DNA from: an uncultured Latescibacterota bacterium
GTDB taxonomy: Bacteria > Latescibacterota > UBA2968
Assembly: GCA_951812755.1 (NCBI GenBank)
Contig: OX638329.1
Coordinates: 3,356,522-3,420,521 of the forward strand
Reading direction: 5' to 3'
DNA length: 64,000 nt
In this document: positions 24,974-42,620 of the stretch, in pieces
How positions within the stretch are numbered: position 1 is the stretch's first letter
Layout of the letters: every line of letters begins with the position of its first letter
Made by a program: the position numbers and the translations under genes
Notes under the pieces: model-generated
What the model was told of the DNA's origin: nothing
The model's database searches: none
Seen by the model: only the letters and a program-made list of their open reading frames with translations

Positions 24974-27900
24974 TCACTTTAAGAGCGCAACGCGATTTGT
25001 AAATATCGCTTCCTTGTCTTTTAGAAGGACTATATAGATTCCAGACCCCACAGATGCTCCCGAGTCATTTTTACCATCCCATATACGCCGATAATATCCT
25101 GCCGGCAAATGTTGTTGAACCAACCGTCGGATGGGTTGTCCCAGGATATTATATATAGTTACATAAACAGGACCTCCTGTAGTGTAAAAACCTAACACAG
25201 TTGCAGTATTGAAAGGATTAGGTGACGGGTAAATGCCCCAATCTGTTTCCAGACCACGGGGTTTTGAATCGCCAGATATAGGACTATTAACCATCTGGCC
25301 TTCACTATCAAAAACAATGGGTTTTCCCGATACGACATTTTCATCGTTCACACCATTCAGGGTATCTGGTTCCACTTCCGAAACAGGTGGTGTACCGGGT
25401 GACATCGCGTGCTGGCCAGGGATTCGGGGGTGTAACTCTGGAGGAGCATCCGGCGACAACAGCCATGAAACATCTGGTGTAGCTTTTGGTACGCGCACAG
25501 ACCGCGCTACAGTCTTACCATCGGGCAGGATCAGATGAACAACATCTCCACCGCTACTGAGTCCATTTCCTATCTGACCTCCAGCAGACAAGACAGTACC
25601 GGGGATACTCACAGGCGTCCCTCCACCAAAGATGGTGACATAACCACCGGGTACGAGCATGACATCATCGGGAAAAGGAAAGAATTGAGAGACAACGATA
25701 TCGTCATCGCCGAGCATCCATCCGCTCAGGTCGAGCGTATCTGCACCGGTATTAGCCAATTCGACAAAAGCATCTGTATGTCGATCCACAACCCCATCGT
25801 TATTGGCATCCACCTGTTTGGGTAACATCAGGATTTCGGAGAATACCAGACCGTTAGGGATAGTCAATTCTTCGGGGTCAATTGCATCATCGCCATGCCC
25901 TAAGCGTCCGACTGAGATAGATTTCCCTTCGTATATCTCATTGTGTAATAGATAATTGCCATTATCATCTCTGGCAAAGGATATGCCCTGACGCGCGTTC
26001 TCATACGTCATTTTAGATACCACCGTACTTCCATCGGGTGCCAATAACTGCACGGTATCGCCTCCATTGGACAGGCCATCGCCAATGCGACCGTCATCGG
26101 CAAAAATCCGCTCGCTAACGGGCATATCCCCCCCACCAAAGAGCACTGCGACAGCTTGAGGTTTGAGCATTGTATTGTCGGGAAATCGAAAAAGCTTTTT
26201 TAGAGGCACATCGTCATCACCGAGGTAATAGCCGCCAATATCGATGGGATGCTCGCCCAAATTCGCTATTTCGACAAACTCATCCTGATAGGTGTGCCGC
26301 CCCCCATCACCGTTGGTATCACCTGCGTCGCCTGTGGCCGGATTGGGATATACTTCAGAGATCACCAGGTCTTTGGGTGGTTGAAAAATGTCAAGTGTAT
26401 CTCTACCCGCTGTATTTATGGAATCTGCTCTCGTCGCCTCTTGTCCATCCGGTGATGTACCGGGCGACATCGCGTGCCAGTCGGGGATTTGGGGGTGTAA
26501 CTGTGGTGGGGCATCAGGCGACAATAGCCATGAAACATCTGGCGTGGCTTTTGGTACGCGCACAGACCGCGCTACAGTCTTACCATCGGACATGATCAGA
26601 TGGACGACATCACCGCCACTAGCAAGACCATTGCCGATTCGATCGCCTACAGACAAAACGTGACCGGGAATCCCTAAAGGCGTTCCCCCACCAAAAATGG
26701 TGACATAACCTCCGGGCACGAGCACGACACTATCGGGAAAAGGAAAAAACTTAGAGACAACGATATCGTCATCGCCGAGCATCCATCCGCTCAGGTCGAG
26801 GGTATCTGCGCCGATGTTAGTCAGTTCTACAAAAGCATCTGCATGTCGATCCACAACCCCATCGTTATTGGCATCCACCTGTTCGGGCAGCATCAGGATT
26901 TCGGAAAATACGATACCATCCGGGACAGCCAATGTGTCGGTCAATCCTTCAGGCTCAATCGGGTCATCTCCAGGTTTTAAGCGTCCGACAGAAGTTGAAT
27001 CCTCTTTGTATATCTCATTGTGCAAGACATAATTGCCGTCTTCATCTCTGGCATAAGAGACGCCTCTGGTCGAGCGTTCATATACCATTGAAGCGACTAC
27101 TGTACTGCTATCGGGTGCCAATAACTGCACGGTATCGCTCCAATTGGACAGGCCATCGCCAATGCGACCGTCATCGACAAAAATCCGATCTTTAACTGGC
27201 ATATTTCCTCCACCAAAGAGTACTACGACCGCTTGCGTATCGAGCACTGTGTTATCGGGAAATCGAAATAGGCGATCTGCTGAAACATCGTCATCGCCGA
27301 GGAAATAGCCACCAATATCGATGGGATTTTCGCTCTGATTCGCCACTTCGATAAACTCATCCTGATAAGTGTGCCGCACCCCATCGCCATTGGCATCGCC
27401 CGCTTCACCCCAGGCGGGATTGGGATACACCTCCGAGATCACCAATGCTGGTTTTTCCTTTTCTAACACCCGGATATATGTGTGAAGACTCTCCCGACCT
27501 CTCCAGAAAAATCCGACCTCCGTTTCACCAGGATGCACAGCAACCACCTTGTTGTTATGTTCGATTCGCGCGATAGTGGTATCCCACGATACCCATAAAA
27601 CCTCATCATCGAGCTGCGTTGGTACTCCATCTTTATAAATCGCGGGTATCAGTGAAACGGATTCTCCTTCTATCATGTCCAGATATTCGGGAAAAGATTG
27701 GAGTATATCGAAAAGCGACCGTGGTTTGCCGGGTGAAAATAGCCCTTTGCCCGGGTCAGCACTGTGCAATACCCACCCGCCAGTCCCTTCCGGATACCGC
27801 ACCAGAGATTGGTCCTTACCCCCTTCTTTACCCCATTCTGCTCTGGCAATTGTATCGCCTGCAGTTTTTATGAGAAATACCTCGTCGCTTGTATTGTTTA

Positions 27901-28285
27901 AACCTCTACTACCTATTTTGCCATCATCGACAAAAACTTTGCCTTCAAATTCAGATTTAATTTTCGTTATATCTCCGCCGCCAAAAAGGACGATGTATTC
28001 GCCAGGGCCAATCACTGTGTCTGATGGGAAAGAAAATGGTTTGCTCGTCTTAGAGTTGTCTGTCAATTGCCACCCACCGATCACAATAGTATCTGATCCG
28101 GTATTCAGTATTTCCACAAATTCGTCCTCACTGGTGTGCCGGACACCATCTCTATTGGCATCACCCCGATCCCCCGATGGCGGGCCTGCAAGGACCTCAT
28201 TGATCACGACATCCTTTTCAGCACCGAAAACTTGTATCTTCCAAAGCATTCCCAATATCACAACAATAATCCCGTATCTCATCAT
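24974..28285 (-). CDS. secreted multi-LTD protein with FlgD-like C-terminal tail
   Basis: Large surface or secreted protein, 1103 residues. The frame is open 26 codons further up, but ATG 28285 has a perfect AGGAGGT ribosome site and begins a signal peptide (MMRYGIIVVILGMLWKIQVFGA). Seen: five lamin-tail-domain-like units, the first at about 25-150, then about 277, 457, 637 and 814 onwards; a BIG2-like bacterial immunoglobulin domain at about 200-275 between the first and second; and a FlgD-Ig-like tail from about residue 1019 (PSPNPFNTATVLGFY to the end), the kind of C-terminus found on secreted FCB-group proteins. Units two and four share the signature GDANGDG/GDTNGDG, and three and five share VDANNDGVVDRH, both DxNxDG-type calcium-loop sequences. 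Units alternate in two types, with DNA-level duplication. Confidence 0.82.
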   Translation of the reverse strand: MMRYGIIVVILGMLWKIQVFGAEKDVVINEVLAGPPSGDRGDANRDGVRHTSEDEFVEILNTGSDTIVIGGWQLTDNSKTSKPFSFPSDTVIGPGEYIVLFGGGDITKIKSEFEGKVFVDDGKIGSRGLNNTSDEVFLIKTAGDTIARAEWGKEGGKDQSLVRYPEGTGGWVLHSADPGKGLFSPGKPRSLFDILQSFPEYLDMIEGESVSLIPAIYKDGVPTQLDDEVLWVSWDTTIARIEHNNKVVAVHPGETEVGFFWRGRESLHTYIRVLEKEKPALVISEVYPNPAWGEAGDANGDGVRHTYQDEFIEVANQSENPIDIGGYFLGDDDVSADRLFRFPDNTVLDTQAVVVLFGGGNMPVKDRIFVDDGRIGDGLSNWSDTVQLLAPDSSTVVASMVYERSTRGVSYARDEDGNYVLHNEIYKEDSTSVGRLKPGDDPIEPEGLTDTLAVPDGIVFSEILMLPEQVDANNDGVVDRHADAFVELTNIGADTLDLSGWMLGDDDIVVSKFFPFPDSVVLVPGGYVTIFGGGTPLGIPGHVLSVGDRIGNGLASGGDVVHLIMSDGKTVARSVRVPKATPDVSWLLSPDAPPQLHPQIPDWHAMSPGTSPDGQEATRADSINTAGRDTLDIFQPPKDLVISEVYPNPATGDAGDTNGDGGRHTYQDEFVEIANLGEHPIDIGGYYLGDDDVPLKKLFRFPDNTMLKPQAVAVLFGGGDMPVSERIFADDGRIGDGLSNGGDTVQLLAPDGSTVVSKMTYENARQGISFARDDNGNYLLHNEIYEGKSISVGRLGHGDDAIDPEELTIPNGLVFSEILMLPKQVDANNDGVVDRHTDAFVELANTGADTLDLSGWMLGDDDIVVSQFFPFPDDVMLVPGGYVTIFGGGTPVSIPGTVLSAGGQIGNGLSSGGDVVHLILPDGKTVARSVRVPKATPDVSWLLSPDAPPELHPRIPGQHAMSPGTPPVSEVEPDTLNGVNDENVVSGKPIVFDSEGQMVNSPISGDSKPRGLETDWGIYPSPNPFNTATVLGFYTTGGPVYVTIYNILGQPIRRLVQQHLPAGYYRRIWDGKNDSGASVGSGIYIVLLKDKEAIFTNRVALLK
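25394..27450 (-). repeat. internal tandem duplication of about 1.07 kb in LTD gene
   Basis: Two adjacent copies, roughly 25394-26458 and 26459-27450, each encoding one type-A and one type-B LTD unit. Anchors such as ACCGGGTGACATCGCGTG (25394) and ACCGGGCGACATCGCGTG (26459), and the AAAATCCG segments near 26103 and 27181, are offset by 1065-1078 bases. Long stretches are nearly identical, so the duplication is recent or kept alike by conversion. Confidence 0.85.
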
Positions 28286-28563
28286 ATTGACCTCCTGCGA
28301 TAATTTTTCTTTATGACATCTGCAAATCGCGTGCCAAAAGCTAAAAAATATCATAAGAGACATTAAATCAGTGAGTTACGCTCATGGAGGTCTGTATAAC
28401 CAAATAGCATTGGAGAACGAATCGTTCAATTTTTGGCGATGAATGAATCAAATTTTTCAAAAAAAATCCCGGCCATTATAGTGACCGGGGTTCATTTATG
28501 CTTGACGTATATCGAAAAAACGTGTTATTGATTGCGTCGTCTAACCAACAGGAGGATAAGACT

Positions 28564-33574: not shown

Positions 33575-35923
<2,349 letters not shown>

Positions 35924-36211
35924 TTATTCAATTACTCTGGGGACGCGGAAGTGACCTTGCCCAGAAAGCGGGGCATTCGCCAGCGCGTCCGACCGGTCCA
36001 ATGACTGCCCCATCACATCGTCTCGAAACGCATTTTTTAGGGGGAGTACATGTGCTGTTGGGGAGACCTCTGTTGTATCGAGTTGATCAAGTGCCGCAAC
36101 ATATTCGAGCATGCGGTTCAAATCATCGATTAGCTGCGCCTCCTCTTCCGGCGCAAAATTCAGGCGCGCAAGTTGCGCCACTTTTCGTACATCATTTTTT
36201 GAAACAGGCAT
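35924..36211 (-). CDS. gatC: Asp/Glu-tRNA amidotransferase subunit C
   Basis: Small stabilising subunit of GatCAB, which amidates mischarged Glu-tRNA-Gln or Asp-tRNA-Asn. 95 residues, normal. Seen: VRKVAQLARLNFAPEEE, then the family pattern LDQLDTTEVSPTAHVLPLKN and FRDDV. gatA and gatB are not in the window. The 5' end, with the eight bases before the ATG, is duplicated about 340 bases upstream (36447-36551), and the stop codon of the antitoxin gene between the copies lies exactly in the shared TAAACACT just ahead of this ATG. Confidence 0.93.
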   Translation of the reverse strand: MPVSKNDVRKVAQLARLNFAPEEEAQLIDDLNRMLEYVAALDQLDTTEVSPTAHVLPLKNAFRDDVMGQSLDRSDALANAPLSGQGHFRVPRVIE

Positions 36212-36216
36212 AGTGT

Positions 36217-36450
36217 TTACCGAAGGAATGCGTTGAGTAAGTCATCTGGGAGCGGCTCAAAAAAGCTGTGAGGGATGGTCATTCCGCGGTCAATTCCTAC
36301 AGGGCGCAGTTCGGCAGGAGATTGTGGCACCGGACGAATCTCCGCTATCGGTACATTGCGCCGACAAACGACGATTGTCTCTCCTTGCTCTACGCTGTCG
36401 ATGTAGTGCGAGAAATGAGTTTTTGCCTCAGAAATGTTGACTTTGATCAT
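36217..36450 (-). CDS. Phd/YefM-family antitoxin, orphan
   Basis: 77 residues. Seen: MIKVNISEAKTHFSHYIDSVEQGE and IVVCRRNVPIAEIRPVP, the classic prevent-host-death N-terminal DNA-binding and dimer domain, then a C-terminal tail with FEPLPDDLLNAFL that would normally neutralise a PIN or Fic/Doc toxin. No toxin gene follows: the next codons are gatC. The ATG overlaps (ATGA) the stop of the gatC-fragment ORF, so translation is coupled to it. GGAG lies upstream. An intact toxin could be elsewhere in the genome, or the antitoxin may protect against one that was lost. Confidence 0.88.
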   Translation of the reverse strand: MIKVNISEAKTHFSHYIDSVEQGETIVVCRRNVPIAEIRPVPQSPAELRPVGIDRGMTIPHSFFEPLPDDLLNAFLR

Positions 36451-36551
36451 TCTACACTCCGTTCAAAACTGATTCGGACCTCTTCTTTCGGCGCAAACTC
36501 CAAGCACGCAAGCCGCACCACTTTTCGCATATCATCTTTTGAAACAGGCAT
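36447..36551 (-). pseudogene. duplicated 5' fragment of gatC
   Basis: A 34-residue frame (MPVSKDDMRKVVRLACLEFA then PKEEVRISFERSVE) that matches the first 26 codons of gatC at about four bases in five, including the eight bases ahead of the ATG (TAAACACT). It ends in a TGA overlapping the antitoxin ATG. Too short for the complete GatC fold. Best read as a relict of a duplication or of recombination that brought in the antitoxin gene. Confidence 0.75.
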
Positions 36552-36612
36552 AGTGTTTAGATAAGGTTTTTGAATTTCAGCAGCATTTTGCGGGTATATC
36601 TTACACAATTTT

Positions 36613-37569
36613 TCAGGGTGCCGGTAACAACTGCCAACTCCCGTTATGGAGGGCCAACCGCGACGTGTCGGTCTTGTTATTCCTTAATGCCTCTTCGGTA
36701 CGTCGGCTGTCGTTGATAAATTGACTGGATTTGAATGCAAATATACTATTTGCGTTAGTATTTGGATACCTAAATACTTCGATACCTTTACCTATTATGC
36801 AGGTAATTCCGTCGAAACGTATGTATCTGTCGTGAGCGTATGTACTAAAAACATGATTTAGAGACAGGTGTAAGGTAATCTTTTTAATTTTTTTTAGTCC
36901 GAGTTGAGAAACCTTTTTCTGCAATTTTATTGCAATCTGGTCTAAGGCAACCGAATTTCTGCCTGCATCTGGAGATGAGTAGATTGTGACGTAGCATTTA
37001 GACGAATCGTTCTCAAGGAATTGAAACAGGTTAAGTAAATCATTCTGCTCATCATCGAAGTTCCACGCGGCATATCTATCTACGATAGTAACTTGTTTTG
37101 AAATCTTGGCAAGCATTTGAAAACGTTCTGCCCAGAGGTCAACTATCGGCTGGCCTATCGGTATATTGCAATTGGCAAGTTGTCTTGCGGATTCAAATTT
37201 ATCGGATTCACTAACATTGTGCAGTTCGGCGGCCTCGACATTTCCACAATATTTAGTTGGATTCAGGCCGAACACCAGCGCACGAGTTTCTTCTATAAGC
37301 GCAAGTTCAAACTTATGATGATACTTTGCCAAATCCTCAGGATCGTCTATACTTGCCCAATCAATTTCACTGGTATCCTGCCATAGAGGATAGCCATTAG
37401 ATTGAAATGTCGTGTAATATTCACGCAGTTGATGCTTAAGAATAGAATTTTGGGAATCGACATCTACTAGAATCCCATAGGGATTCCAATGATTTTTCAA
37501 CAGGTTTCGTATATGGTAAGGTTTTGCTTTAGAAAGTGCATCAGGTTCAATAGTGAATTTTACTAACAC
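36613..37569 (-). CDS. putative PLD/MIT_C-like effector of an ATPase cassette
   Basis: 318 residues, no signal peptide. Seen: an N-terminal half without recognised motifs; from about residue 155 strand-loop patterns KQVTIVDRYAAW (about 160), FLENDSSKCYVTIYSS, and then AHDRYIRFDG (His near 243) followed by TCIIGKGIEVF. The HDRYI...iGkGie order recalls the half HKD motif of the phospholipase-D-like MIT_C domain found in effector proteins of defence operons. I see only one such motif, so an active nuclease would need a dimer. The start is a GTG with GGAGG upstream. It follows the AAA ATPase by 13 bases, AT-rich unlike pyrG or pcrA. Function inferred mainly from context. Confidence 0.5.
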   Translation of the reverse strand: MLVKFTIEPDALSKAKPYHIRNLLKNHWNPYGILVDVDSQNSILKHQLREYYTTFQSNGYPLWQDTSEIDWASIDDPEDLAKYHHKFELALIEETRALVFGLNPTKYCGNVEAAELHNVSESDKFESARQLANCNIPIGQPIVDLWAERFQMLAKISKQVTIVDRYAAWNFDDEQNDLLNLFQFLENDSSKCYVTIYSSPDAGRNSVALDQIAIKLQKKVSQLGLKKIKKITLHLSLNHVFSTYAHDRYIRFDGITCIIGKGIEVFRYPNTNANSIFAFKSSQFINDSRRTEEALRNNKTDTSRLALHNGSWQLLPAP

Positions 37570-37582
37570 CCCTCCCCCTCCC

Positions 37583-39127
37583 TTATTCAGCTATCAATTC
37601 GTTGAATCCCTCGTCAAAGAAGCCGTGCGGCCACTCGTCAGTGAAATCACCATCTTCGTCAAGTTCCAGAACCTCTATCTTGCTACCCTCATCGCCAGGG
37701 TTTACGTAAATCACTGAAACGTCATTAGGGTTAAGAGTTTCTTCCCGAATATGTCGTTGAATACGCCGTATCAGCAGTTCGCTGTGCGTTTCGACAATCC
37801 ACTGCTTCCCGTCTTTGCCCGTACTCGTCTCAATCATCAAGTCAGCGATGTTTGCCTGAAGCCTGGGATGAAGGTGTATCTCCGGTTGTTCGACACAGAT
37901 TATTGCGTTTTCCTCTCGGGTTAGGCCCTCGGTTATTATTGGTAATAGCTGATTTATTCCAAATCCCACATCGGCAAGGGTTACCGGAGTTTTTGTGTTC
38001 TTATCAATAAGGGCAATGGAAATATATTTTCCGGCTAGTTGTACATCTCCAAATTCTCTAACCTTTAGTTCGTAAGGGATTTCAAAGAGATCAAACCACT
38101 CGTTCACCTTTGTTTGAATATCAGAACTGTGATAAAGAATATGAGGCATGAACTCCCCCCGGATGCCAGTTGACTCTCTGCCTCTCCCTGAAATCGTATA
38201 GATCCTTTCCGGGTAATTCCGCAATGGCCCCATATAAGTGATTGAACGCAGGAGGTCTTCATAACTCGACGGAATATCTTCCAGATTAAGTCCCGCTATC
38301 TGTTCTGGTTTTATTTTGGATATCAGTGCCATTACTTGTTTTTCTACCAGTAACAGTCCTTGTGCCTCTTGCTTTTTAATTTCCTCTATCTGTTTCATTA
38401 CTATTTCTGCTCTTTTCTTTGCCCCTTCCCTTGCCTCTGCCTCTGCCTCTGCCTCTGCCGTCATTCGTTCCATAAATTGTGTCACTTTCTGTATCTTTGC
38501 CCGTTCCTCTGCTAATGCCTCTGCTAAGATATGTTCGTCTACCAGTTTAGTCCCCCATCTCCGTACCAATCCCTGTGTCCTTTCCAATTCTAGGATTTCT
38601 ATCGCTGGTAAAAAATTTTTACCTGAAAATGATGGTTTTCTTGGAAATATTTCACGGTTATCACCCACACCTGAGATTGATAGCTGTGGTGTATCCCAAG
38701 AATTTATATCGGGATCGTACTCCAATTTAGCATCAAGGAGTACTTCGTTCTCATCAAGAATTTGATACCTTAATTTTGACAAGAATGAAGAATCTTTAGT
38801 AGAACCTAAAGTCAGGTTTACGCCAGATTTAGTGATAGATGAATTTTTGAATGTAACGCCTATTCCAATTTTACATTCTATGTCGTGTTTGTAGATCAGA
38901 GCGGGAAAGCCGCCCAAATCGACATATTCCCCCCTAGTCATCGGTTCCCTTCTACCCTTTTTTTTCCATTCTCCATCTAGTGACTGCTTTAGCATGAGCA
39001 GTGCTTGAATTATGGAGCTTTTTCCCCCTGAGTTGGGACCGTAGATAAGGGTAATTTTGGACATTGGAGCTTTTTGTTCTGTGTCTCCAAACGCCTTGAA
39101 ATTTTTCAATCTGAGTTCTGAAAGCAT
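37583..39127 (-). CDS. AAA family ATPase, DUF3696/OLD-like
   Basis: 514-residue ABC-type (RecF/OLD-like) ATPase. Seen: LSELRLKNFKAFGD start, Walker A YGPNSGGKSS (about 30), a central coiled coil at about 203-260 rich in Ala and Glu, signature-like ADVGFGINQLLPII, Walker B CVEQPEIHLHPRLQ (about 410), a D-loop/H-switch region VETHSELLIRRI (about 444), and C-terminal DGDFTDEWPHGFFDEGFNEL matching DUF3696. Known: DUF3696 ATPases occur in bacterial defence operons beside an effector gene, much as PtuA pairs with PtuB in Septu. There is no TOPRIM domain, so it is not a classical OLD nuclease. It precedes the PLD-like gene by 13 bases. Confidence 0.85.
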   Translation of the reverse strand: MLSELRLKNFKAFGDTEQKAPMSKITLIYGPNSGGKSSIIQALLMLKQSLDGEWKKKGRREPMTRGEYVDLGGFPALIYKHDIECKIGIGVTFKNSSITKSGVNLTLGSTKDSSFLSKLRYQILDENEVLLDAKLEYDPDINSWDTPQLSISGVGDNREIFPRKPSFSGKNFLPAIEILELERTQGLVRRWGTKLVDEHILAEALAEERAKIQKVTQFMERMTAEAEAEAEAREGAKKRAEIVMKQIEEIKKQEAQGLLLVEKQVMALISKIKPEQIAGLNLEDIPSSYEDLLRSITYMGPLRNYPERIYTISGRGRESTGIRGEFMPHILYHSSDIQTKVNEWFDLFEIPYELKVREFGDVQLAGKYISIALIDKNTKTPVTLADVGFGINQLLPIITEGLTREENAIICVEQPEIHLHPRLQANIADLMIETSTGKDGKQWIVETHSELLIRRIQRHIREETLNPNDVSVIYVNPGDEGSKIEVLELDEDGDFTDEWPHGFFDEGFNELIAE

Positions 39128-39169: not shown

Positions 39170-39277
39170 TCAGCTACGAATATCAGATAAACACACCCCG
39201 AAATCAAGAGGATTTACCCAGGTTTTTGATCGACAAAATCCTAACAACAGACCGGTATCCAGCAAGAAGTTACTCAT
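39170..39277 (-). pseudogene. truncated PIN-domain toxin (VapC-like), N-terminal fragment
   Basis: 35 codons, MSNFLLDTGLLLGFCRSKTW and then an early stop. LLDTG..LGF at the N-terminus is the first strand and first catalytic Asp of a PIN domain; the other acidic residues and the remaining hundred or so codons are missing. It begins 12 bases after the 39290-40231 gene and stops 42 bases before the ATPase start, as if the ATPase cassette had replaced the rest of it. Confidence 0.7.
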
Positions 39278-39289
39278 GATATTCAGGGC

Positions 39290-40231
39290 TTAATCCAATT
39301 GCGCCAGAAGTTCTTCTACAGGTTCATTGCCGGGCCATGTGCCGCATAAACTCAGGACATTGAAGGCTCGGGCCTGCTTCTCTTGTATCCGTGTTAAGCC
39401 GCGGGACCTGGATATCTCGGTAAAAGGCAGTTCTTCAAATACGGCATCTCTGTCTTGATAGGGTCTAAGTCGATGAGCTTCGATTAGTCGGGGCTGGCCG
39501 TTAGCCTTGAAGTGGACCATGCCCTGAACAGTTGCACGCTTGCCCCACAACGGGCGCAACACCCCAACATCGAGTTTATCAGATTGTAGGCGACCAAACA
39601 TTTTCCTGCCATCACCTGATTCGAGAAAAAACCGACCACTATCATGTTTGATTTCTTCGAGCCAGCCGCTGATGATAAATGCCTTTGAGGGCGGAAGGCT
39701 CTTCAGTCTTTCTTCAATCTGATTACAAACAGACGCATCAAGGGTGAATTCCCCGTAATCAGATTCTTGAGGGATCAAGTGGTAGCAGATGTTGGCGTTT
39801 CCTGTAGGCTGTCGGAATCTGAGAATTGCGCTGAGAACGGCTCTGTCAAAGTGGTCGCCAGAGGAGGTCGATTCTTGAGCTTCTTGAATCGACAGTGCGG
39901 CGAGATCAACAGCGGTATCTTGCATGGTCGGCTGTTCATGCCGGAAATTCTGTTGGGCAAACTGTGCGTAGGCTGTCTCGCCAAGCTGGGGTGCCTCAAT
40001 CTCCAAAATATTTGAGCCGAGTTTTTGTTCATTGAGGGTGAAGTCAAGGGCTGCATTCAGCCATCTGGGTCTTGGCCCCCTACCACTACCTTCGCCAGTG
40101 AACATCAGACGAGTGGCGCATTCCGCTGTCTTAACAAGGGCGTCCAAAGAGCACTGAAGTGTTGCCACTTTGATCCGACCTTTGTTCTCTCGAAGGCCGC
40201 GCAGGCGAAATTGGTAGCGTCGCGTGTTCAT
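39290..40231 (-). CDS. uncharacterised protein, partner of PIN-domain genes
   Basis: About 313 residues, cytoplasmic, no family I can name. Seen: an N-terminal basic stretch MNTRRYQFRLRGLRENKGRI, an alpha-rich middle with low-complexity acidic patches, and a C-terminal half containing LPPSKAFIISGWLEEIKHDSGRF and GRLQSDKLDVGVLRPLWGK, which could form a small OB-like or SH3-like beta domain. The ATG at 40231 has GGAG just upstream; the GTG two codons earlier overlaps that site. Its downstream neighbour is the truncated PIN gene, so the pair looks like an antitoxin-like or nucleic-acid-binding partner of a VapC-type toxin. Confidence 0.6.
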   Translation of the reverse strand: MNTRRYQFRLRGLRENKGRIKVATLQCSLDALVKTAECATRLMFTGEGSGRGPRPRWLNAALDFTLNEQKLGSNILEIEAPQLGETAYAQFAQQNFRHEQPTMQDTAVDLAALSIQEAQESTSSGDHFDRAVLSAILRFRQPTGNANICYHLIPQESDYGEFTLDASVCNQIEERLKSLPPSKAFIISGWLEEIKHDSGRFFLESGDGRKMFGRLQSDKLDVGVLRPLWGKRATVQGMVHFKANGQPRLIEAHRLRPYQDRDAVFEELPFTEISRSRGLTRIQEKQARAFNVLSLCGTWPGNEPVEELLAQLD

Positions 40232-40273
40232 GAGCACTCCCTTTATCTGTCGGTCAGCGTTTTAGACCTTACT

Positions 40274-40433
40274 TAACTGACGTTACGCATGTCAGGCGTT
40301 TTGTCATGCTGAGCGGAGTGAAACGGAGCCGAAGCATCTTTTCCACCTGCGTTAGTAGTAGATTCTTCGACTCCGCTGCGCTACGCTCAGAATGACAGGC
40401 GCATTATATTCTGCCTATGCGTAACATCAGTTA
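40274..40433. repeat. MITE-like palindromic element
   Basis: 160-base element with terminal inverted repeats TAACTGACGTTACGCAT (left) and its complement with one mismatch (right). Inside lies a second, imperfect inverted repeat of about 38-base arms, 40302-40397, starting TGTCATGCTGAGCGGAG and ending CTCAGAATGACA. The inner unit recurs at 54234-54336. No transposase is encoded. The gap 40232-40448 contains nothing else. Confidence 0.75.
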
Positions 40434-40448: not shown

Positions 40449-42620
40449 TTACCCCGGCTGAAGATTCGCAAATTTGACCATGAGCGTCTTGACGACGCCA
40501 CCGTCGAATTTTACTTTGAGCCTGGCCGTTTGTCCCGATCCCGCGCGGCTTTGAATCTGTCCTCGACCCCAGGCGGGATGCACGACCCAGGATCCCACAT
40601 CCATTAAAAACGGTTCTCCTGGGTTGACCCGTCGGGCGGGTTCTCGGTTCGATTTGGGGCGCGGAACACTGCTGACCTCGCTGATCTTAAAACCGACATC
40701 GAGCAGATCTTCGGGTATTTCGGACAAAAACTGCGACGCCGTACAGGCTATCGCACCGCCGTATCGCTGCCTCCGCATTGCATAGGACAAAAAGAGCCGG
40801 TCCTCGGCGCGGGTAATGCCAACGTAAAAAAGACGGCGTTCTTCTTCCAGCGCATCATCCCAATTTCCCTCGTCACCAGTGGGCCGCAAAATCGGAAACA
40901 GCCCATCTTCGAGGCCGGTAACAAATACAATGGGAAATTCCAAGCCTTTGGCACTGTGCAGGGTCATCAGCGTGACCGCGTCCGCGGCATTTTCCCACTG
41001 ATCCACATCTGTCACCAGCGAAACTTTCCTCAAATACGCCTCTAAAGAGACATCGTCCGACTGTTCGACAAAAATCTGAATATCTGTCAGCAATTCAGCG
41101 ACATGCGCCCTTCTCGATTCGCGTTCTTCAGGCAGGAGTTTCTCAAAACCACCCAAATATCCGGTTTCATCGACAATTTTTGCCGCGAGTTCATCTGCTG
41201 GCGTCGTCTCCATATCCTGGCGAAAACCCTCGATCGCATCGTAAAACCGCTGCATCGCGTGGGCTGTGCGCTTCGGAATCGTATCAATAGCGTCTAAATG
41301 TGCAAGTGCCTGATAGGGCGCAAGCCCCTCGCGCATGGCGAACTCATCAAGACGTCCTGTAGATGTCGCTCCAATACCGCGGCGCGGTGTGTTAATCACG
41401 CGCCAAAAACTGATGGAATCGCGCGGATTGACCACCAATTTGAGATACGCGAGTACATCTTTGACTTCCTTGCGCTCGTAAAATCGCACATCCCCCACGA
41501 TTTGATATGGGATATTGGCGCGTCTAAATCCTTCTTCAAGGGCGCGAGATTGTGCATTGGTGCGATAGAGTACCGCCATATCTCGGTAGGTATGCGCGTG
41601 CTTAAAATCTCGCGCTACGCCAGCGATCCAACGGGCTTCTTCTGCTTCATCGGCGCACCTTTTCAAACGGATTTTCTCGCCTCCCCCGCGATCTGTCCAC
41701 AGTTCTTTTCCCTTGCGCCCCGCATTGTTGCGAATCAGGGCATTGCCGGCATCCAGAATAACCTGTGTCGAACGGTAATTTTGCTCCAGACGTATGACAA
41801 GCGCGTTGGGATAATCGGCTTCAAAATCGAGAATATTGCGAATATCTGCGCCGCGCCACGCATAGATGCTCTGATCGTCATCGCCAACAACACATATATT
41901 GTGATGAACTTCGGCCAGATAACGCGCAAAAAGGTATTGTGGGCGATTGGTATCTTGATATTCGTCGATTAAAATATGTGAAAACTGCGTCTGATAGGTT
42001 TGGCGCACATCTTCGTGGTCGCGGATCAACGCCACGCTCAATGTCAACAAATCGTCAAAATCAACGGCATTATTCTGTTTCAGGGCATCCTGATAGTGGC
42101 GAAAAACCCGCGCGATTATTTGCTCCCGAAATGTACTCGCGCGCTGGGCGAACACATCGACCCCCACCATCTGGTTTTTTGCCTGGCTGATTCGCGTGCG
42201 AATTAAACGCGCAGGGAAATCGCGTTCAGAAAGTTCCTCATCGGCAATAACCCGTCGCAGAAGCGCGAGTTGATCTGTTGTATCGTAAATCGTAAAGCTG
42301 GATCTCAGTCCCACCCGTTCGGCCTGCGCTCGCAAAAGACGCGCACATAAACTATGGAACGTGCCAATCCACATGGTTTTGCACGAGCGATGCAGCAAGT
42401 CTTCGACGCGCTCGCGCATTTCTCCTGCGGCCTTGTTGGTAAAGGTCATCGCCAGAATTTGTTTCGGATCAACGCCGCATTCACTCAACAGATAGGCGAT
42501 GCGTCGCGTCAAAACGCGCGTTTTGCCAGACCCCGCCCCCGCGAGAACAAGTACAGGGCCATCTACGGCCTGTACCGCTTTGCGTTGTGCATCATTTAAT
42601 CCATCGAGAATCGAAGACAT
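40449..42620 (-). CDS. pcrA: UvrD/PcrA-type DNA helicase
   Basis: SF1A 3'-5' helicase for repair and replication restart. 723 residues, normal. Seen: GPVLVLAGAGSGKTRVLTRR (motif I), TFTNKAAGEMRERV (Ia), ILIDEYQDTN (II), GDDDQSIYAWRGAD (III), LEQNYRST (IV), LMTLHSAKGLEFPIVFVTG (V) and LFYVGITRAEDRLFLS (VI), then a Tudor-like C-terminus binding RNA polymerase in homologues (WVVHPAWGRGQIQSRAG). It is the last gene of a minus-strand run with mltG and ruvX. Confidence 0.96.
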   Translation of the reverse strand: MSSILDGLNDAQRKAVQAVDGPVLVLAGAGSGKTRVLTRRIAYLLSECGVDPKQILAMTFTNKAAGEMRERVEDLLHRSCKTMWIGTFHSLCARLLRAQAERVGLRSSFTIYDTTDQLALLRRVIADEELSERDFPARLIRTRISQAKNQMVGVDVFAQRASTFREQIIARVFRHYQDALKQNNAVDFDDLLTLSVALIRDHEDVRQTYQTQFSHILIDEYQDTNRPQYLFARYLAEVHHNICVVGDDDQSIYAWRGADIRNILDFEADYPNALVIRLEQNYRSTQVILDAGNALIRNNAGRKGKELWTDRGGGEKIRLKRCADEAEEARWIAGVARDFKHAHTYRDMAVLYRTNAQSRALEEGFRRANIPYQIVGDVRFYERKEVKDVLAYLKLVVNPRDSISFWRVINTPRRGIGATSTGRLDEFAMREGLAPYQALAHLDAIDTIPKRTAHAMQRFYDAIEGFRQDMETTPADELAAKIVDETGYLGGFEKLLPEERESRRAHVAELLTDIQIFVEQSDDVSLEAYLRKVSLVTDVDQWENAADAVTLMTLHSAKGLEFPIVFVTGLEDGLFPILRPTGDEGNWDDALEEERRLFYVGITRAEDRLFLSYAMRRQRYGGAIACTASQFLSEIPEDLLDVGFKISEVSSVPRPKSNREPARRVNPGEPFLMDVGSWVVHPAWGRGQIQSRAGSGQTARLKVKFDGGVVKTLMVKFANLQPG

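Follow-up and report, generated by a model that had tools for sequence, protein, structure and literature searches.

How did an orphan antitoxin gene come to lie between two starts of gatC in a bacterium with one complete gatC? We addressed this question in a 64,000-nucleotide stretch of DNA (the window) from a 6.53 Mb, single-contig genome of Ca. Latescibacterota (G000), which we compared with ten genomes of the same genus (11 in the genus set) and eleven genomes outside the genus. The relatives are mostly fragmented MAGs; the named ones are Ca. Latescibacterota, and one is filed as Gemmatimonadota. Their names, together with papers on the phylum in sponges, suggest that they are sponge-associated.

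The start of gatC is duplicated around an orphan antitoxin gene

We found a direct repeat of 88 nt on the minus strand of the window (36139-36226 and 36479-36566), the copies of which are 83% identical and spaced exactly 340 bp apart. A self-search of the surrounding hotspot recovered the repeat as 81 nt at 85% identity (E=1.7e-21). When the whole 64-kb window was compared with itself by BLAST, only three matches reached E<1e-6, this repeat among them, and it is therefore not a chance similarity. The repeat contains the first ~26 codons of gatC and 8 leader bases, and the phd/yefM gene is located exactly between the copies. The original prediction had described such a duplication (26 codons plus eight upstream bases, about 340 bp apart) around a Phd-type antitoxin gene, and the repeat and ORF coordinates bear this out; its estimate of about 79% identity was slightly low, as the copies are 81-85% identical depending on the stretch compared. 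Elsewhere in the window, a tandem duplication of ~1 kb with 81% identity (25386-27444) is located inside an ORF of 1129 aa (24974-28363).

The first copy of the repeat belongs to a gatC 5' fragment, gatC' (36447-36559, minus strand; secure to 36479 and possible to 36447), which reads ATGCCTGTTTCAAAAGATGAT... The fragment forms a 34-codon open frame (36447-36551), and its TGA overlaps the ATG of phd (ATGA). The second copy (36139-36219, minus strand) contains a putatively rebuilt leader and the start of the intact gatC (35924-36211, minus strand; 95 aa; PF02686, E=2.3e-19), which is the only full-length gatC in the genome. The sequence TAAACACT precedes the ATG in both copies, and the TAA of the second TAAACACT is the stop codon of phd. 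Both codon overlaps are exactly as originally described.

The gatC' fragment is 85% identical over 81 nt to the gatC of its own genome and 89% identical to that of G010; it is nearest to the gatC of G010 and G003 rather than to its own, based on 80 bp with few informative sites. A repeat of 80 bp is too short for phylogeny to assign the rebuilt gatC start to a donor. Compared with the G010 gatC, the fragment has 2 synonymous and 6 nonsynonymous differences, where neutral evolution would predict 72.5% nonsynonymous. It shows no protein constraint and drifts in a pseudogene-like manner, as expected without selection, and its length of 26 codons combined with the absence of constraint rules out a second functional gatC. 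The fragment can be aligned with small gaps to about codon 37, where it reaches the phd ATG, but this extension is suggestive only (tail shuffle p=0.09).

The antitoxin gene is under constraint and its toxin has been lost

The orphan antitoxin gene (36217-36450, minus strand; 77 aa) matches Phd/YefM families above the cut-offs (PF02604, E=5.4e-9; NCBIfam phd_fam TIGR01552, E=1.2e-6). In G010, a phd gene with 93% amino-acid identity is followed by a 128-aa PIN gene (PF01850, E=8e-9) and then by gatC, which is preceded by ...GGTAATCACTATG. The locus resembles Phd/YefM-PIN (VapC-like) type II toxin-antitoxin modules in its antitoxin family and in the adjacent PIN toxin of G010, but differs in that the toxin gene of the window has been deleted. 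No cognate toxin gene is present directly 3' of the window phd, where gatC comes next. We conclude that the toxin is gone because the 3' end of phd continues directly into ...GGTAAACACTATG, joining the gatC leader where G010 has its PIN gene.

The window phd is intact and remains constrained; its 77-aa product has lost C-terminal residues. It differs from the G010 phd by 11 synonymous and 5 nonsynonymous changes (p=5e-4), and on the window branch by 6 synonymous and 2 nonsynonymous changes (p=0.008), part of which branch may predate the loss of the toxin. One could suppose that the gatC' fragment has been kept as a translated leader, a regulatory device in which the ATGA overlap ties translation of phd to the promoter and start site of gatC. 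The 34-codon frame that closes at the phd start and the constraint on phd are in line with this reading. However, the fragment itself shows no protein constraint and is 5'-truncated in G002, and phd is preceded by a GGAG of its own, six bases ahead of the ATG, all of which makes such a device very unlikely.

The close form of phd was found only at this site, in 4 of the 11 genus genomes. The best match from outside the genus has 55% identity and contains stop codons; all others there have less than 46%. Carriage of phd on a dispersed mobile element was ruled out, as the close phd is confined to this site in the genus. The window's genome also contains a PIN (48% identical) at G000:C1:1375348, with a small ORF adjacent on its upstream side; since this ORF could be the partner of that PIN, there is no case for the lone Phd protecting against it.

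The pcrA-gatC junction is a genus-specific hotspot

The genes of the window hotspot are ordered on the minus strand as pcrA, a 315-aa gene, an AAA ATPase gene, a PLD-like gene, the gatC fragment, phd, gatC, and pyrG. The left border is a pcrA/UvrD helicase gene (40449-42620; UvrD-helicase PF00580, E=1.1e-93), for which the best NCBIfam model was TIGR01073 pcrA (E=1e-255), yet below the equivalog cut-off. It adjoins gatC across the family and order. The conserved gene 3' of gatC is pyrG (CTP synthase; 34076-35857; CTP_synth_N PF06418, E=5.6e-103), and the gatC-pyrG order is the same in relatives.

The 315-aa gene (39290-40237) had no confident match in Pfam, NCBIfam, or PADLOC and is usually located 5' of a large PIN gene in the hotspot. 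The large PIN is intact in G001 (PF01850, E=4.5e-6), G002, G004, and G008, and is reduced in the window to a relic of ~17 codons (39200-39277, minus strand, within 39200-39289), with ~400 bp deleted relative to G002 by alignment. Both hotspot PIN genes, the large PIN and the Phd partner, have thus been lost in the window, and their neighbours persist. The ATPase gene (AAA_15/DUF3696; 37583-39127; PF13175, E=8.1e-26) and the PLD-like (MIT_C) gene (36613-37569; PF16565, E=4.9e-4, below the curated cut-off) resemble nsnB and nsnC of the Menshen system (NsnA-NsnB-NsnC). The NsnB match is strong (PADLOC, E=2.7e-61), whereas the NsnC match is weak (PADLOC, E=4.1e-4). No NsnA-like gene was found among the window genes scanned, and the three-gene set is thus incomplete. 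Between pcrA and the 315-aa gene, we observed a MITE-like palindromic element of ~155-165 bp with a strong hairpin (40277-40430), which has about 40 copies in the genome at 76-94% identity and is missing at this spot in G001, G004, G005, and G009.

Outside the genus, the gap between pcrA and gatC is 85-197 bp in 10 of 11 genomes and 970 bp in one, and therefore the ancestral state was one gatC without cargo. Within the genus, the site is empty in three of 11 genomes (G003, G006, and G007), and the content of the others varies. The 315-aa gene and large PIN occur together in G001, G002, G004, and G008, and G005, G009, and the window carry deleted versions. The ATPase and PLD-like module is found in G000, G002, and G005, a GmrSD-like gene in G001 and G004, an AlbA_2 gene in G008 and G009, and an OLD-like ATPase gene in G008. 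The Phd-PIN pair is intact in G010 and present as remnants in G000, G002, and G009. With conserved flanks (pcrA and gatC) and variable content comprising at least five module types in the non-empty genomes, the pcrA-gatC junction is a hotspot, specific to this genus, for modules of the defence-like and toxin-antitoxin types. Family scans, the only search made for them, found no integrase or transposase among the called cargo proteins. There was no support for the cargo having replaced more of the pcrA 3' end than its last few bases, since a 3-bp deletion in the pcrA tail is common to filled and empty genomes.

Trees built upstream and downstream of the site agree on the groupings G000 with G009 and G005 with G006, and are weakly supported elsewhere. 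The 315-aa gene has diverged in step with the flanks, so that much of the hotspot content may go back to old vertical inheritance accompanied by losses and not to recent exchange. The 315-aa genes of G005 (locus L037) and G009 (L042), which are not sister species, have the same internal deletion (residues ~35-184); this could be due to exchange, an old polymorphism, or the same event occurring repeatedly. In G002 (L036), the ATPase is 65% identical to that of the window, although its PLD-like partner is very different (32% identity), which suggests partner exchange.

The fragment is probably the displaced native start of gatC

In G005, the ATPase-PLD module, with no phd, is joined straight to a single gatC. 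Aligned to the window, the G005 sequence continues without a break from the module through the fragment copy and into gatC (window 38363-36479, 87%), and the gatC leader of G005 (AAAAACCTTATCAAACACT...) matches the leader of the fragment (AAAAACCTTATCTAAACACT). For these reasons we consider the gatC' fragment to be the native start, and the downstream gatC to carry a new leader. The original prediction of a rebuilt gatC leader holds for the intact gatC, with the fragment being the native start displaced from it. On its own, G005 could be a later excision product rather than a pre-insertion state, because recombination between the direct repeats would recreate the same sequence.

The G010 contigs break off at the phd ATG and, on the other side, 43 bp short of the pcrA stop, such that the comparison with G010 covers phd and the sequence to its right; G009 has a run of Ns across the gatC start. 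In G002, most of phd is gone and gatC codons ~7-26 are fused to the 3' end of phd, which is followed by gatC. The deletion end in G002 resembles that of the window, with GCATTCC followed by TTCGGTAA or ATTGGTAA. Since G000 and G002 are not sisters, the toxin-loss state is either old, with losses elsewhere, or has been exchanged.

The repeats are direct and in the same orientation, which would also be the outcome of an ancient tandem duplication of the gatC start, with phd acquired later between the copies by chance. However, the ends of the repeat coincide with both ends of the phd gene, and no relative was found to have two gatC starts without phd sequence between them. The original prediction had named relatives with both gatC copies and no antitoxin as the observation that would count against it. 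We looked for such relatives and found none: all seven phd-less relatives in the genus (G001, G003, G004, G005, G006, G007, and G008) have one gatC each. An ancient duplication filled by chance is scarcely credible on this evidence.

Border-gene ends are displaced at other sites in the hotspot

Displaced ends of border genes were found between modules in 4 of 8 filled genomes (G000, G002, G008, and G009). In G009, a 45-bp copy of the pcrA 3' end is located between the phd remnant and the AlbA_2 gene and is 93% identical to the pcrA of G003 (E=7e-14). In G008, three direct repeats of ~140-180 bp surround the AlbA_2 and OLD-like genes (L040, 11387-15328), and two of them end in a pcrA-end scar (E=3e-8 and 1.6e-5). 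Inside each of these repeats, a 25-bp motif (TTTTTGATTGGGTTTTGATTTTCGG) occurs twice at a distance of 89 nt. The G008 repeats were found nowhere else in the genus except in the G009 hotspot, and this confinement to two hotspots ruled out a dispersed repeat family. Comparable scars in other species point to recombination that was one-ended, took place at the flanking genes, and did not involve an integrase. The event in the window is one of several in the pcrA-gatC hotspot.

A probable origin by one-sided recombination

We consider it probable that the locus arose in a hotspot through one-sided recombination that brought in Phd-PIN together with a gatC start, followed by deletion of the toxin. 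In an ancestor, a Phd-PIN module would have arrived joined to a gatC start. One side of the recombination, inside gatC, would have been homologous; the opposite side was presumably a non-homologous join of native gatC codon ~25-37 to the phd leader. The native start of gatC would thereby have been stranded behind the ATPase-PLD module as a dead 5' fragment, and a rebuilt, complete gatC would have followed the toxin. A later deletion would then have removed the PIN toxin, fusing the 3' end of phd to the leader of gatC and giving phd the TAA of that leader as its stop. G002 would share the toxin-less state, by descent or exchange. The one-sided crossover and the order of events are what we infer from these comparisons, and the same applies to any function of the lone Phd. 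The core idea of the original prediction, insertion by recombination that rebuilt the gatC leader, is supported by the single-gatC relatives and the G005 junction. The antitoxin alone was probably not the insert: given the intact pair in G010, the sequences indicate that a complete Phd-PIN pair was most likely inserted and that its antitoxin was orphaned later.

Nobusato and colleagues reportedly proposed insertion with long target duplication for restriction-modification units, in which a selfish module lies between long direct target repeats. Applied here, Phd-PIN would have inserted into the gatC of the same cell, copying a target of ~87 bp (TAAACACT and codons 1-26) on both sides, and the toxin would have been lost later. 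Both cases have a selfish gene module between long direct copies of its target; they differ in that the module here is a toxin-antitoxin pair and in that neighbour species are also scarred at the opposite border. The anatomy of the window is exactly that expected and by itself fits long target duplication equally. In addition, both window copies have TAAACACT, whereas G010 and G002 read TAATCACT and TAACCACT ahead of the intact gatC. However, the pcrA-end scars of G008 and G009 at the other border have differing break points, which recombination between alleles explains better than one insertion chemistry, and the close phd is found only at this site. We regard long target duplication as possible but rather unlikely. 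The work in question (Nobusato, Uchiyama, Ohashi and Kobayashi 2000) is cited in PMC3874152.

Going beyond one-sided recombination at a single border, the hotspot might stack modules recurrently, with the gene-end spacers (gatC 5' or pcrA 3') providing homology for the next gain or loss, and so perpetuate itself without a recombinase of its own. We mention this as an improbable extension.

Relation to known systems

There is good documentation of integrase-less hotspots whose content changes through recombination in the core genes that flank them (Oliveira et al. 2017, PMC5635113). Unlike in those hotspots, displaced gatC 5' and pcrA 3' ends stay here between the stacked modules, and this suggests that the join was one-ended and not the outcome of a clean double recombination. 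In E. coli experiments on homology-facilitated illegitimate recombination, mostly single crossovers with shortened homology were obtained, which duplicated 109-950 bp of the end of the target gene (PMC3240628). Those duplications are on the same scale as the ~87-180 bp repeats in the hotspot, and they likewise combine homology on one side with an illegitimate join or shortened homology on the opposite side. The E. coli events were selected in the laboratory, whereas ours would be a natural event in an uncultured phylum. By this analogy, the window pattern fits an integration that used homology at one end and was joined without homology at the opposite end. The process is of a known kind and its novelty is modest.

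The locus is an unusually legible fossil of a toxin-antitoxin module entering an operon border without a recombinase. Its aftermath is preserved in the window: the toxin has been lost, the antitoxin gene has been kept under constraint, and the start of an essential gene appears to have been rebuilt. With eleven species in empty, single, and stacked states, the turnover of a hotspot through recombination in its flanking genes becomes testable in an uncultured phylum.
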